Shown here: positions 3,166-64,000 of the stretch, piece after piece
Layout of the letters: each line of letters starts with the position of its first letter
Position numbering within the stretch: position 1 is the first letter of the stretch
Assembly (NCBI RefSeq): GCF_003721435.2
Contig: NZ_CP054585.1
Span: 806,001-870,000 of the forward strand
Origin: Halorubrum sp. CBA1229
GTDB lineage: Archaea; Halobacteriota; Halobacteria; Halobacteriales; Haloferacaceae
Reading direction: 5' to 3'
Length of the DNA stretch: 64,000 bases
Translations under genes and position numbers: made by a program
Notes under the pieces: generated by a model
Databases searched by the model: none
Seen by the model: only the letters and a program-made list of their open reading frames with translations
What the model was told of the DNA's origin: nothing

Positions 3166-5415
3166 TCAGGCCAGTTCGCGCTCGATCACGCCGCGGAGCT
3201 CGCGGATCGCGTCGGCGTCGACTGCGGTCGACTCGCCGCCGACCGACAGCGAGAGCGTCCCGTCCGTCGTCACGTCGCCGAGCCGGTGCACGGGAAGCTC
3301 GCCCGCGGCCTCGGCGACCGCCTCGGGGTCGGTCGTCTGCACGACGAGGCGGCCGGGCGTCTCGTCGAACGCCGCGACGCGGTCGGGGAGACGAACGTCG
3401 GCGCCGGCCGCGTCGGTCACCAGCTCGGCGAGCGCGACCGCGAGCCCGCCGTCGCTCACGTCGTGGGCCGCGAGCGTCGACTCGTCCCGGGCGACCGCCG
3501 CGAGCGACGCGACGCGGTCGGCGAGGGCGACGCCGTCCGACTCGTCCGGCAGGTCCGGGAACCGGTCCGTCCCGCCCGCCTGCGCGAGGTACTCGGAGCC
3601 GCCGAGCGCGTCGCCGCCGGCGCCGACCAACAGGAGCTCGGAGTCGTCGGCGCGCTCGGCATCGAGCGCCGCCGACGGGGCGTCGTACCCGCGCTTCGTC
3701 CCGATCAGCGCGAGCGTCGGCGTCGGCGGGATCGGCCCCTCGACGCTGTCGTTGTACAGCGAGACGTTGCCGCCGACCACGGGGGTGTCGAGGGCGGCGC
3801 AGGCGTCGGCGAGGCCGTCGACAATCCCCTTGAATCCGCCGTACACGTCCGGCTTCTCCGGGTTGCCGCCGTTGAGGCAGTCGACCGCCGCGAGCGGGAC
3901 CGCGCCCTTCGCGGCGAGGTTGGTCGCGTTCTCTACGGCGACCGCGCGGGCCCCCTCGTACGGGGCGGCCGCGGTCCAGTTCGGGTTCGCGCCCGAGGAG
4001 AGCGCGAGGCCGACCCCCTGTTCGTCGGGATCGAGCGCGGCGGCCGCCTCGTCGTCCGCCGCGGTCTCCCGGATCGCCATGATTGCGGCGTCGTCACCGG
4101 GCTTCACGGCGGTGCGCGCGCCGACCTCGTGGTCGTACTGGCGGTACACCCAACGCTTGCTCGCGGTCGACGGGGCCGAGACGACCGACTCGACCGCGTC
4201 GCCGAGGGCCGGCTCTGGGTCGGGCAGGTCGCGGTCAGGCTGCGTCGGCGCCTCGCTCGGGAGGTCGTTCATCGGCGCGCCGTCGGCGAGGTACTCGGCG
4301 TCGACGTCGACGACGGTCTCGCTCTCGTCGCCGTCGCCCGCGAACTCGCAGACGTAGTTCCCGTCGGTCACCTCGCCGATGACGGAGCAGCCGAGGTCGA
4401 AGCGGTCGGCGAGCGCGGAGACGCGGTCGACGTCGTCGGGGGCGACCTCGTAACACATCCGCTCCTGGCTCTCGGCGAGCAGGATCTCGGTCGCGTTCAT
4501 GTTCGGCTCGCGCTGGTGGACGCGGTCGAGGTCGATGCGGGCGCCGAGCCCGCCCTTCGCGACGAGCTCGGAGGAGGCGCCGCCGAGCCCGGCCGCGCCG
4601 AGGTCGCGGGCCGACAGGATCAGGTCCTCGTCGACCAGCGCCTCGTTGCACTCGATCAGCCGCTTCTCGGCGTAGGGGTCGCCGACCTGCACCGCGGGGC
4701 GGTCCTCCGTCTCGGCGTCCTCCGCGAGGTCCTCGCTGGCGAAGGAGGCGCCGCCGAGCCCGTCGCGGCCGGTGCCGTTGCCGACGAGGACGAGCTTGTT
4801 TCCGGGCTCCTGAGCGGTCGCGGTCACCAGCCGGTCCTCGTTCGTGAGGCCGACGCAGGCGACGTTGACGAGGGGGTTCCCCTCGTAGCCGCCGTGGAAG
4901 GCGACGCTGCCGCCGACGGTGGGGACGCCGATGCAGTTGCCGTAGTGGGAGATCCCCTCGACGACGCCCTCGAAGAGGTACCGCGAGCGCTCGCGGTCGA
5001 AGCCGCCGAAGTATAACGAGTCGAGTAAGGCGATCGGGTACGCGCCCATGCTCATCGTGTCGCGGACGATGCCGCCGACCCCCGTCGCGGCCCCGTCGAA
5101 CGGGTCGACGAAGGAGGGGTGGTTGTGGCTCTCGACGCCGAAGGTGACGTACTGGTCGCCGTAGTCGTCGGCGTCGCGGTCGGCCGCGGGGGCGTTCGCG
5201 GCGTCCGGCTCGGGGAGCGCGAGGACGGCGGCGTCGTCGCCGGGACCGACGACGACCTGGTCGCCCTCGCTCTCGAACGCCGACAGCAGGGGCCGCGAGG
5301 AGCGGTACGCGCAGTGCTCGCTCCAGAGGTTCTCGAACAGCGCGGCCTCGGCCGTCGTCGGCTCCCGACCGAGCTCGGCGACCACGAGCTCGCGGTCCGG
5401 TTCGGACAGACTCAT
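3166..5415 (-). CDS. purL: phosphoribosylformylglycinamidine synthase subunit PurL
   Basis: 749 residues, the small-type PurL (about 700-750). It catalyses the ATP-dependent conversion of FGAR to FGAM in purine synthesis, together with PurQ (glutaminase) and PurS, neither of which is next to it. The N-terminus has the family motif [19 protein letters not shown] (residues ~27-45), then VGPGDDAAV, the [21 protein letters not shown] substrate loop, and in the second half-repeat [33 protein letters not shown] and [17 protein letters not shown]. The two AIRS-like halves are complete. It starts at an ATG and is transcribed away from repeat copy A. Confidence 0.97.
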
Positions 5416-5528
5416 TCACTTACGTGGTTACCGAGCCCGTTCTAATGCTTTTCTATGTGCACGTTCGTGTGGTTCGATCCCGACGGCCGACGTTTGGGGT
5501 ACGCCATGATCGTTCATCGAACCGACCG

Positions 5529-5941
5529 GCGCGCGCCTCCGAGCGGCCGTTTTTAAACGGCCGCGAGGAGCGCGTGCGAGGGAGTCGCTGGCACCCTCCG
5601 CTTCGCGTCGGGTGCCAGCGACGAGGCTGGGGAGGCGTGAGGCTGCGGTCGCTGTGCGGGGCGGGGCTCAAAGGGGCAGCCGCGAGGACGGCGCAGGCGA
5701 CGCAAGCACCGCAACGAGGGAGCGAACGAAGTGAGCGACCGAGTGAGGAGCGCAGCGAGCGTGCGCCGTCCTCGCGGCTGGGGCTTTGGCGGTGGTCGCC
5801 GACGATCCGTCAGCAACGACGTACAGCCGATCGGCTGGGGCTTTGGAGAGGTTCACCGACGACCCGGTCTCACACGTTTATAAACGAGCGCCCGAGACTT
5901 CGGTGAGGATCACCGTCGCTCCGACGGCATCCATTTATAAA
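5529..5941 (+). repeat. dispersed structured element, copy A
   Basis: First of four related non-coding elements. In order: hairpin H1 (arms 5543-5552 and 5555-5564, 10 bp perfect); the common GCGAGGGA; hairpin H2 (5584-5596 with 5610-5622, 13 bp perfect); a nearly invariant block from 5623 to 5676 (starts GAGGCTGGGGAGGCGTGAGG); hairpin H3 (5677-5695 with 5762-5780, 19 bp perfect); and three tail units of about 57 bp beginning near 5775, 5832 and 5890, the last two ending in TTTATAAA. The tail ends exactly on the stop codon of the convergent gene at 5935. No open frame is conserved between copies, so it is non-coding; RNA gene or mobile element are the alternatives. Confidence 0.85.
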
Positions 5942-21552: not shown

Positions 21553-23238
21553 TCAGTCGTCCGCCAGCGAGGCCGCGTCCGGCACCGATCCGTCCTCGGC
21601 GGCGGCCGAGAGCAGGCGGTCGAGCCCGTCGACCATCGCGACGACGCTGGCGCGGGTGATGTCCGCGTCCGTCGAGGAGACGGAGACCGACCGGTCGCCC
21701 CGCGAGAGGTCGACCTCGACGGTGACGACCGCGTCGGTGCCGCCCGTGATCGCGTCGACGTGGTAGGAGTTCAGATCGAAGGAGACGCCTTCTCCGCTCG
21801 AATCGCCCGCCAGCGCGGCCCGCACGGCCTCGAGGCCGGCGTCGACCGGGCCGGCGCCCGTACCGGAGGCGACGCGCTCCTCGTCGCCGACGCGGAGTCG
21901 CACCGACGCGGTGGGGAGGTTCCCGCCGGAGGTGGCCGACAGGTCGACGAGCTCGACGCGGCGGTCGCGCTCGCGGCCCTGCACGTCCTCGGTGATCGCG
22001 AGCAGGTCGGCGTCGGTGACGCGCTTCCCGCGGTCGCCGAGCTCCTTCACGCGGCTCACGACCGCGCTCAGCTCGTCGTCGTCGACCGCGACGTCGTGCT
22101 CGGCGAGCGCGGCCTTGACGCCGGCGCGGCCGGCGTGTTTCCCGAGGACGAGGCGCCGCTCGCGGCCCACCGTCTCGGGCGGGTACGGCTCGTACATCGT
22201 CCCGTCCTTGAGCGTGCCGTCGGTGTGGATGCCGGACTCGTGGGCGAAGGCGTTGGCGCCGCAGACCGCCTTGTTCGGCGGGAGCGCGACGCCCGTGGCT
22301 TCCGAGACGGTCCGACAGAGCCGGTAGAGCCGCTCTAGCTCGACCGTGTCGACGTCGTACGACCGGGCGAGCGCGACGGCGACCTCCTCTAAGGCGACGT
22401 TGCCGGCGCGCTCGCCGACGCCCATCACGGTGCCGTGGACGGTGTCGGCGCCCGCCTTCAGCCCGGCGTGGACGTTCGCCACGCCGAGGCCGAGGTCGTC
22501 GTGGGTGTGGAGGCTCGTCGGGCCGCGGTCGGCGAGCCGGGAGACGACCTCGGCGGTGCGCTCCGGGTCGGCCGCGCCGACCGTGTCGCAGTAGCAGATC
22601 CGGTCGGCGCCGGCGTCGAGGCCGGCGCCGAGCAGGCGGTCGAGGTAGTCGAGGTCGGCGCGGGAGCCGTCCTCGCCGAGCACCTCGACCCACAGGCCGT
22701 GGTCTTTCGCGTACTCGACGAGCTCGACCGTCGTGTCGACCACCTCGTCGCGGGTCGAGCCGACCTTCGTCTCGACGTGCTTGTCCGAGGCCGGGACGAC
22801 GAGGTTGATCCCGTCGACGCCGCAGTCGAGCGCGTGGTCGACGTCGGCCTTCACGCCGCGGGCGAAGCTCGTCACGGTCGCCGAGAGCCCCTCGCCCGCG
22901 ACCCGCCGGATGGCCTCGCGCTCGCCCTCCGAGGTGCACGCCGAGCCCGCCTCGATCAGGTGCATCCCCGCCGCGTCGAGCTCGCGGGCGACGTCGACCT
23001 TCTCGGCCGGCGTCAGCGAGACGCTGGGCATCTGCTCGCCGTCGCGCAGGGTGGTGTCTAACAGCTGTACCTCGTCGAGGTCGGTGAGTGGTGTTCGGGT
23101 CAAAAGGGAGTCCGTCCGCTTGTCGGTGGGTTCGGAGCCGGTGCCGCCGCGGGGCGGTCGTGCCCCGGAATCGTTATCGCCGGAGAATTTCGCGGCCAGC
23201 CGCCGCGAGGCGACTTCCTCTATCCTCCGAACGACCAC
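21553..23238 (-). CDS. cimA: (R)-citramalate synthase / 2-isopropylmalate synthase family
   Basis: 561 residues with a GTG start at 23238; a TTG about 45 codons in, just before TRTPLTDLDEVQLLDTTLRDGEQ, is a plausible alternative. The DRE-TIM barrel shows LLDTTLRDGEQMPSVSLTPAEK, LHTHDDLGLGVANVHAGL and GVGERAGNVALEEV. The C-terminal LeuA allosteric domain follows (NLPTASVRLRVGDEERVASGTGAGPVDAGLEAV). It condenses acetyl-CoA with pyruvate (citramalate, isoleucine route) or with 2-ketoisovalerate (leucine route); specificity cannot be fixed by eye, so the symbol is tentative. A TATA element near 23280-23287 is shared in the divergent gap to the cupin gene. Confidence 0.88.
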   Translation of the reverse strand: MVVRRIEEVASRRLAAKFSGDNDSGARPPRGGTGSEPTDKRTDSLLTRTPLTDLDEVQLLDTTLRDGEQMPSVSLTPAEKVDVARELDAAGMHLIEAGSACTSEGEREAIRRVAGEGLSATVTSFARGVKADVDHALDCGVDGINLVVPASDKHVETKVGSTRDEVVDTTVELVEYAKDHGLWVEVLGEDGSRADLDYLDRLLGAGLDAGADRICYCDTVGAADPERTAEVVSRLADRGPTSLHTHDDLGLGVANVHAGLKAGADTVHGTVMGVGERAGNVALEEVAVALARSYDVDTVELERLYRLCRTVSEATGVALPPNKAVCGANAFAHESGIHTDGTLKDGTMYEPYPPETVGRERRLVLGKHAGRAGVKAALAEHDVAVDDDELSAVVSRVKELGDRGKRVTDADLLAITEDVQGRERDRRVELVDLSATSGGNLPTASVRLRVGDEERVASGTGAGPVDAGLEAVRAALAGDSSGEGVSFDLNSYHVDAITGGTDAVVTVEVDLSRGDRSVSVSSTDADITRASVVAMVDGLDRLLSAAAEDGSVPDAASLADD

Positions 23239-24647: not shown

Positions 24648-24654
24648 TTATAAA
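24648..24654 (-). promoter_or_regulatory. TATA box of the Cas4-like gene, supplied by repeat B tail
   Basis: TTTATAA on the minus strand, followed 30 nt later (box start to start codon) by the GTG of the Cas4-like gene. It is also the terminal motif of a 57-bp repeat tail unit. Confidence 0.55.
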
Positions 24655-24990
24655 GAGTTGACTGCGGATAAACAGTGAACACCGCCAAAGCCCCAGCCGC
24701 TCGCTTATAGGCAGCTGCTTACGGATCGTCGATGAAGACCTCCAAAGCCCCAGCCGCGAGGACTCGCGTGGCTCGCTGCGCGCTTCAGTCGCTCGCGATG
24801 CTCGCTCCTTCCAGTGCTTGCGTCGCCAAGCGTCGTCCTCGCGGCTGGGGCTTTGAGTCCCGCCCCGCACAGCAACCGCGCCTCACGCCTCCCCAGCCTC
24901 GGCGGACGGACCGGCACGGCTCCGCCCGCGCCGGCCCGCCGCCTCCCTCGCGGGCGGGTCGCGCCCGCTGGGCGCGACCCGGCGCGCCCC
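24648..24990 (-). repeat. dispersed structured element, copy B
   Basis: Minus-strand copy of the element in copy A. Read on the element strand: H1 (24980-24970 with 24966-24956, 11 bp perfect), H2 (24943-24930 with 24915-24901, one bulge and one G-U pair), invariant block (24900-24856), H3 (24855-24835 with 24763-24743, 21 bp perfect, 71-nt loop) and two 57-bp tail units, the first ending in TATAAG near 24706 and the second in TTTATAA at 24654-24648. The mismatch in H2 becomes a G-U wobble only on the element strand, consistent with RNA made from that strand. Confidence 0.85.
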
Positions 24991-25079
24991 TTCATCGTTG
25001 GGGCTCGTGAGCGTGCGGTGGTGGTCAAGCGAGAGCGGGGAGACGGCAGGCCGTGAAGGCGGTTACAACGAGCGACTAT

Positions 25080-46406: not shown

Positions 46407-46416
46407 TTTATTTAAA
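46407..46416 (+). promoter_or_regulatory. TATA box in front of repeat copy C
   Basis: TTTATTTAAA, with its centre about 25 nt before the 5' end of the copy C H1 hairpin (about 46431-46437). Confidence 0.5.
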
Positions 46417-46427
46417 CCGACCGCGGT

Positions 46428-46876
46428 GGTGCGCACCTGCGAGCGCCCACCGGGCGCGAGCAGCCTGCGCGAGGGAGTCGGTCGTCCGGAGCAGCGCGGA
46501 GGACGACCGACGAGGCTGGGGAGGTATGAGGTGCGGTCCCGCGAGCAACGCGAGCGGGAGCACGGAAGTCGCAGCCCGCGCAGCGAACGCAGTGAGCGAG
46601 CAGGAACGTCTTCCGGCGGTGGCTGTCCGGGGCGGGACTCGAAGGGGCAGTCGCGAGGACTGCGCAGGCGACGCAAGCACTGGAGGGAGCGAGCGGCGCG
46701 AGCGACCGAAGCGCGCAGCGAGCGTGCGCAGTCCTCGCGACTGGGGCTTCGGAGGCGTTCGCCGTCGATCCAGTATCACTCATTTATAAGCAAGCGACTG
46801 GGGCTTCGGAGGCGTTCGCCGTCGATCCAGTATCACTCATTTATAAGTAAGCGACTGGGGCTTCTGAAGCGCTTCC
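46428..46876 (+). repeat. dispersed structured element, copy C
   Basis: H1 (46443-46448 with 46452-46457, plus outer pairs GCGCA/TGCGC), H2 (46477-46487 with 46501-46511, 11 bp perfect, different sequence from copy A), invariant block interrupted by an ~85-nt insertion with its own hairpin (CCCGC/GCGGG near 46540 and CGGAAG/CTTCCG), then H3 (46648-46666 with 46725-46743, 19 bp perfect). H3 differs from copy A at two base pairs and both partners change together. Two tail units of exactly 57 bp (46738-46794, 46795-46851) differ by one base, each ending TTTATAAG; a third is cut short. Confidence 0.85.
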
Positions 46877-63779: not shown

Positions 63780-63838
63780 CTTATAAACAAACGGCTGCGA
63801 ATCGGCGGTGAATACCGTCAAAGCCTCGGGCGATCATT
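63780..63838 (-). repeat. inverted repeat-tail unit downstream of scpA
   Basis: On the minus strand the stretch reads GAGGCTTTGACGGTATTCACCGCC, similar to the GGGCTTTGGAGGTNTTCACCG core of the 57-bp tail units. On the plus strand CTTATAAAC at 63780 is its TATA-like end. It sits in the gap between scpA and copy D in the opposite orientation, as if remnants of another element. Confidence 0.45.
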
Positions 63839-63844
63839 TATACG
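63837..63844 (+). promoter_or_regulatory. TATA box in front of repeat copy D
   Basis: TTTATACG, about 25 nt before the 5' end of copy D (H1 side at about 63860). Same placement as the TATA in front of copy C. Confidence 0.5.
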
Positions 63845-63857
63845 AAACTGAAGCGGT

Positions 63858-64000
63858 GGCGCGTGCCTCCGAGCGGTCGCCCTCGGCGACCGCGAGGAGC
63901 GCGCGCGAGGGACGCGGCGAACGCGAGCGGCGAAGCCGCGAGCCGTGAGCCGCGAGGCTGGGGAGGCGTGAGGTGCGGTCGCTGTGCGGTTGGGTGGGAC
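63858..64000 (+). repeat. dispersed structured element, copy D (continues beyond the window)
   Basis: Starts with H1 (GCGGTCGCC at 63873-63881 with GGCGACCGC at 63885-63893, 9 bp perfect), the common GCGAGGGA, H2 as a nested pair (CGCGGC 63913-63918 with GCCGCG 63949-63954 and GCGGC 63927-63931 with GCCGC 63935-63939), then the invariant block (GAGGCTGGGGAGGCGTGAGG from 63955) to the window end. H3 and the tail lie outside. Arm sequences differ from the other copies. Confidence 0.8.

Follow-up and report, generated by a model that had tools for sequence, protein, structure and literature searches.

Bacterial REP and BIME sequences, which are associated with RAYT, are intergenic, occur in excess at the 3' ends of genes and carry a constant motif beside hairpins with variable stems; in some genomes, copies form inverted pairs. 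Elements of the PATE type occur in haloarchaea (PMC3119063, PMC10544981), and for Halorubrum lacusprofundi one has been reported both from a plasmid and from a virus (PMC10544981). A third point of comparison is provided by the structured non-coding RNAs (ncRNAs) collected in Rfam.

The genome of Halorubrum sp. CBA1229 harbors a dispersed element that shares features with all three. As judged from its sequence, it appears to match no known RNA family: Rfam gave no plausible match for copy C at E values up to 10 or for five other loci at E values up to 3, and no covariance model matched, that of archaeal SRP RNA included. The look-alike stretches GCGGTGGCGCGTGCC and GAGGCTG, together with the high copy number, resemble features of eukaryotic SRP-derived SINEs (Alu/7SL); with no match to an Rfam SRP model, this kinship was rejected and the likeness is put down to chance in GC-rich DNA. 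Searches of the open-access literature turned up no account of the element; an earlier one in a subscription journal is possible.

The window, the whole stretch of 64,000 nucleotides that was analyzed, contains four copies, A to D, which on re-reading sit where a sequence-only reading had placed them. All four are recovered by R1, a covariance model of hairpins H1 and H2 and the adjoining block that was built on 30 copies (A, 5524-5642, plus strand; B, 24881-24994, minus; C, 46424-46531, plus; D, 63854-63973, plus). In copy A, H1 (5528-5577, plus) consists of an outer stem, GGCGCGCGCC-TCC / GGA-GCGCGTGC, a tandem G.A step and an apical stem, CGGCCGTTT/AAACGGCCG. On the same strand follow the linker GAGGGA (5578-5583), H2 (5584-5622), the near-invariant block GAGGCTGGGGAGGCGTGAGG (5623-5642) and the GGGGCGGGGCTCAAAGGGG linker with H3 (5658-5788), whose arms (5669-5698 and 5759-5788) contain a GGG/GGG internal loop and tandem G.A steps. 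Three tail units spaced by 57 bp complete the copy (5775-5941, plus), and units 2 and 3 end in TTTATAA.

Copy B as a whole lies at 24648-24994 on the minus strand and has an atypical H1, a low R1 score of 39 bits, CCCC in the 5' arm of H3 and two tail units; its last TTTATAAA begins 30 nt upstream of the GTG of the downstream gene. Copy C, on the plus strand, is preceded by a TATA-like TTTATTTAAA (46407-46416) and comprises H1, GAGGGA, H2 and the block (46424-46531), an optional module of ~90 nt (46532-46620), the GGGGCGGGACTCGAAGGGG linker and H3 (46628-46751; arms 46640-46669 and 46722-46751), and three tail units (46737-46876; starts 46737, 46794 and 46851). Within the optional module, 49 nt show 94% identity to a Natrinema thermotolerans plasmid sequence, and the module may be a separate element. 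Copy D, also on the plus strand, has a TATA-like TTTATAC upstream (63837-63843) and retains H1, GAGGGA, H2 and the block (63854-64000) before the end of the window cuts it. The sequence-only reading had given A, B and C tail units of 57 bp; the spacing is exactly 57 bp in A and C, and B has two units. Elsewhere in the window, the leuA-Halobacteria RNA (RF03001) is found at 23182-23234 on the minus strand (E 1e-12).

The family is larger than the four copies first reported. R1 finds 105 copies in the genome, and when copy A was used as the query, the best 40 of 237 candidates were all related. From the 5' end, the element starts with a TATA-like box followed by H1, of the form GCGGTGGCGCGYGCC-NNN-GAG[apical stem]CGA-NNN-GCRCGYGC with a conserved tandem G.A step, and then by GAGGGA, H2 and GAGGCTGGGGAGGYGTGAGG. 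A short GCGGTGCTGT-like run comes next and, in some copies, the extra module of ~90 nt, before GGGYGGGACTCAAAGGGG leads into H3, a stem of 15-20 bp continued by 2-bp steps that are split by tandem G.A pairs; the H3 of some copies holds extra hairpins. H3 is followed by CGRCTGGGGCTTTGG and, in nearly all copies, by one to five tail units, which measure 57 bp in regular arrays and in many cases end in TTTATAA. The hairpins are thus separated by near-invariant, purine-rich linkers, GAGGGA, GAGGCTGGGGAGGNNTGAGG and GGGYGGGACTCAAAGGGG, while flanks and tails vary freely among copies.

The near invariance of the block, already noticed in the window, holds throughout the genome. The 20-nt pattern GAGGYTGGGGAGGYRNGAGG has 102 genome matches at one mismatch or fewer, and the reversed pattern, used as a control, has none. 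Counted over 16 of the 20 positions in 103 copies, 1648 cells contain 7 substitutions; the remaining positions, 5 and 14-16, are the variable ones. Allowing three mismatches instead of one adds almost no further copies, and the block therefore has no decay tail. At one locus (C1:958091-958199, minus), the block runs directly into the tail, which looks like the result of a deletion between shared GGCTGGGG sequences. A divergent element with other H1 and H2 sequences and an GGGGAGGCGCGAGG block is found in genome G021 (L188).

The hairpins had been proposed to covary, and a covariance-model analysis agrees. Among the 104 own R1 hits (103 distinct rows), 93.6% of the pairing cells in H1 and H2 are paired, and two-sided change is seen in 23 of the 26 pairs, with 408 two-sided cells. 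The covariation score of 0.427 beats both shuffled controls (0.138; none of 500 reached 0.427) and slid ones (at most 0.081). Alignments A2 and A3, which were fitted to the model, lean towards it; an independent MAFFT alignment of 30 copies, made with no model fit, gives the same picture, and simple counts in other Halorubrum species show the same pattern of pairs.

The wobble pairs indicate which strand folds. At paired positions G.U outnumbers A.C by 93:27 in H1 and H2 of the own copies, by 45:13 in other species and, over the initial 15 positions of the H3 stem, by 36:7, or by 57:19, 32:9 and 20:6 when the dominating columns (two in H1, one in H3) are left out; binomial tests were made on the latter, reduced counts (with H3 miscounted as 20:5) and ignored shared ancestry. 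Since a G.U pair on one strand corresponds to A.C on the other, the excess points to the plus strand folding alone. An excess of this kind is not expected of a symmetric DNA cruciform. It appears, then, that the plus strand is selected to fold singly, as RNA or as single-stranded DNA, and selection on a single-stranded fold is well supported by the covariation, the G.U excess and the conserved tandem G.A steps together. Folding energy is lower for the plus strand in all 56 cores compared, an advantage that is mostly one of composition, because dinucleotide shuffles differ between the strands too; the excess over shuffles is small (-22.0 vs -19.9 kcal/mol).

Within the 60 nt upstream of the element, a TATA-like box is present in 82 of the 105 own copies, compared with 0-1 in control windows, and in 53 of 81 copies from other species, compared with one. 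It starts mostly 16-22 nt before GGCGCG. Most copies seen from other genera are without it. No TATA was read at the empty sites corresponding to 852424 (copy C; L219 and L229), 1449339 and 1883721, in orthologs that are only ~80-93% identical, so the box may have arrived together with the element or arisen at the site afterwards; it was not evidently a pre-existing target for a mobile element. If the box is a promoter, it fits the rest of the element imperfectly. With the 30-nt spacing seen at the gene downstream of copy B, a putative start would fall within the 5' arm of H1, ~9 nt from its beginning, and this spacing conflicts with an outer H1 stem that itself covaries: the outer pair is paired in 64 of 97 own copies vs 52 after shuffling (maximum 61), and in 69 of 85 from other species vs 52 (maximum 59). 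Copy 531932, which has no TATA, lies just downstream of a tnpB-type gene (L363, C1 near 530.6-532.3 kb); possibly, an IS1341-type insertion has come between TATA and element, as its end resembles other IS ends.

The explanation we prefer, with modest confidence, is that the element is a dispersed haloarchaeal family of putative structured ncRNA genes, expanded to ~100 copies per genome in Halorubrum, a tentative reading whose chances we put a little short of even. Each copy would be transcribed from the TATA-like box directly upstream, and the RNA would fold into three hairpins and offer its linkers to one partner, a protein or an RNA, that all copies would share. Amplification and loss would shift the copy number between species. 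A putative RNA family accounts for the strand-specific fold, the invariant linkers, the positioned TATA and the chromosomal location.

The main rival is a mobile element of the REP/BIME or PATE kind: non-autonomous and strand-specific, mobilized in trans by a transposase that recognizes single-stranded DNA hairpins and linkers, its copies later fixed and reshuffled by gene conversion. We regard this as a distinct possibility, if not a probable one. Its grounds include the distribution. The element was present in all 22 congeners of a first survey, and exact counts in 20 Halorubrum genomes range from 14 to 195 blocks (14 in G019 and 16 in G017, vs 195 in G166), a spread that looks like mobility and counts against RNA genes. 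Of 27 other genera sampled from the family to which Halorubrum belongs, 13 have weaker relatives, and so do several other haloarchaeal families, some in many copies (71 in G057, 61 in G051); R1 counts in multi-genome searches, which scored no more than 98, 25 or 13 candidates per genome, are lower bounds, to be read as "at least". Some of these relatives form inverted pairs, which favors a mobile element, with modules head-to-head in genera g27 and g30 and tail-to-tail in genome G029. In the latter, two modules (L172 and L083) stand tail-to-tail around a related center, CGCTAGCGAC..CTAGGGATGGC. A MITE with terminal inverted repeats was rejected, since Halorubrum copies have unlike 5' and 3' ends and inverted module pairs are seen only in some other genomes.

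The genomic setting also suits a mobile element. No copy lies inside a gene called by a simple codon-model gene finder, and convergent neighbors outnumber divergent ones by 37 to 14, with 51 tandem, classes that rest on heuristic gene calls and not on curated annotation; the downstream gene opposes the direction of the element in 67 of 102 cases. Copies are, moreover, polymorphically present or absent at orthologous sites. When 10 sites of this genome were checked in six congeners, 9 had a block in the same orientation in one congener or more, and no site was occupied in all six. Some "empty" sites hold remnants, namely a piece of H1 in L212 and tail pieces in L239. At L225, L224 and L228, the stretches that match sites of this genome contain blocks on the reverse strand, which may have arisen by inversion or by separate insertion. 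The distance from TATA to hairpin may also resemble the left-end geometry of IS608. Against this, no clean insertion junction and no target duplication could be made out at base resolution, the orthologs (~80-93% identical) being too diverged.

The mover is harder to place. In a comparison of 17 loci with IS605-type transposases from this genome, the flanks lack the ends of the element, and an origin from them was rejected on this ground: the strong matches there are a neighboring element (L363) and a single tail unit (L366), and the remaining matches are short fragments (24-44 nt), a number of which are the transposon end adjoining copy 531932. No dedicated RAYT-type (TnpA_REP) gene was found in the genome, and the single Y1_Tnp gene adjoins a tnpB-type gene, lying ~0.9 kb from a Cas12f1-like_TNB match as in an ordinary IS605 pair. 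The mover may belong to another family than Y1. Viral or plasmid carriage was likewise rejected: the phages and viral contigs searched gave no match and plasmids gave two weak ones, unlike what is reported for a PATE (PMC10544981). If the element is mobile, it is a single-strand-folded one whose mover is not evidently the IS605 set of the genome.

The hairpins themselves have a history that complicates the reading of their covariation. In the window, the stems had seemed completely different between copies and yet able to pair. They do pair; however, they are not all unrelated, as the H2 variants of 97 own copies group into 22 clusters, of which the largest comprises 30 copies. The variants of H1, H2 and H3 each cluster, and single clusters are common to several copies. 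Cluster combinations are random, with 10 shared H1-H2 pairs vs 6.9 expected, 7 vs 6.8 for H1-H3 and 77 vs 82.6 for H2-H3. Where sister species have a copy at the orthologous site, the flanks can be aligned but the hairpins are wholly different, and at site 681653, H3 is nearly letter-identical to that of G004 while H1 and H2 differ. Each hairpin is thus exchanged between copies independently and as a complete cassette, and a large part of the variation once read as compensatory evolution therefore arrived as whole hairpins. Selection on the fold is still supported, because the exchanged cassettes are themselves paired and the wobble asymmetry persists. Module exchange also means that copies are not independent, which weakens counts that treat them so.

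A further rival holds that structure is not selected at all: template switching would perfect the palindrome arms, gene conversion would spread the linkers, and the covariation would be a mutational by-product. Such a mechanism does operate in the family. In 2 of 89 copies, GGGG in the 5' arm of H3 has become CCCC, which matches the 3' arm, so that arm-to-arm templating acts there in addition to cassette exchange, and at L312 in Halorubrum sp. Atlit-26R (element at reverse-strand position 5032), the interior of H3 is inverted between its own arms. As a full explanation it is nevertheless improbable. Arm correction would erase the unpaired GGG/GGG loop of H3, which is kept in 86 of 89 copies; nor does the mechanism predict the G.U excess, and the conserved tandem G.A steps and the block with no decay tail speak against it as well. 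Least likely of all, to the point of being remote, is a chromosomal DNA landmark (a nucleoid, gyrase or G-quadruplex site) in which the conserved G-tracts matter: all 105 copies map to the 3.22-Mb main chromosome, C1, with none on the 0.36-Mb contig C2 against an expectation of 11.9, and GGGG and GGGYGGG tracts are conserved in several genera, but a double-stranded site predicts neither covarying hairpins nor wobble asymmetry, and the copies are not arranged in domains of like strand orientation (runs test p 0.70), which removes a replication-orientation landmark.

Under the preferred reading as putative ncRNA genes, hairpins would need only the right shape, so that recombination could swap them freely. 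It is possible, short of likely, that these are haloarchaea-wide RNA genes with their hairpin cassettes in linkage equilibrium, in which linkers and fold are kept and the stems are re-dealt into ~100 versions per genome. If it is an RNA, this would be an abundant archaeal structured RNA family that is missing from Rfam, and a natural experiment with ~100 versions of one fold per genome and freely exchanged parts. Either way, covariation over dispersed copies may stem from cassette exchange, beyond point-by-point compensation.

In comparison with known systems, the element is like the PATEs (PMC3119063) in being non-coding, a few hundred bp long, heterogeneous in sequence and present in many copies, with palindromes near its ends and no terminal inverted repeats. 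Unlike them, it shows no relation to the IS605-type ends of this genome, is confined here to the main chromosome and has invariant linkers, three covarying hairpins and module shuffling. With the REP/RAYT systems it shares an intergenic, multi-copy nature, an excess at the 3' ends of genes, a short constant motif beside variable hairpins and, in some genomes, inverted pairs of copies, but it is archaeal and ~10 times longer than REP/BIME sequences, with three hairpins and no separate RAYT-type gene. From the structured ncRNAs of Rfam it is set apart by the lack of a model match and by a copy number that is extreme for a prokaryotic ncRNA. What it has in common with them are covarying helices that exceed controls, conserved single-stranded linkers and a strand-specific wobble, the last of which is also expected of a single DNA strand.
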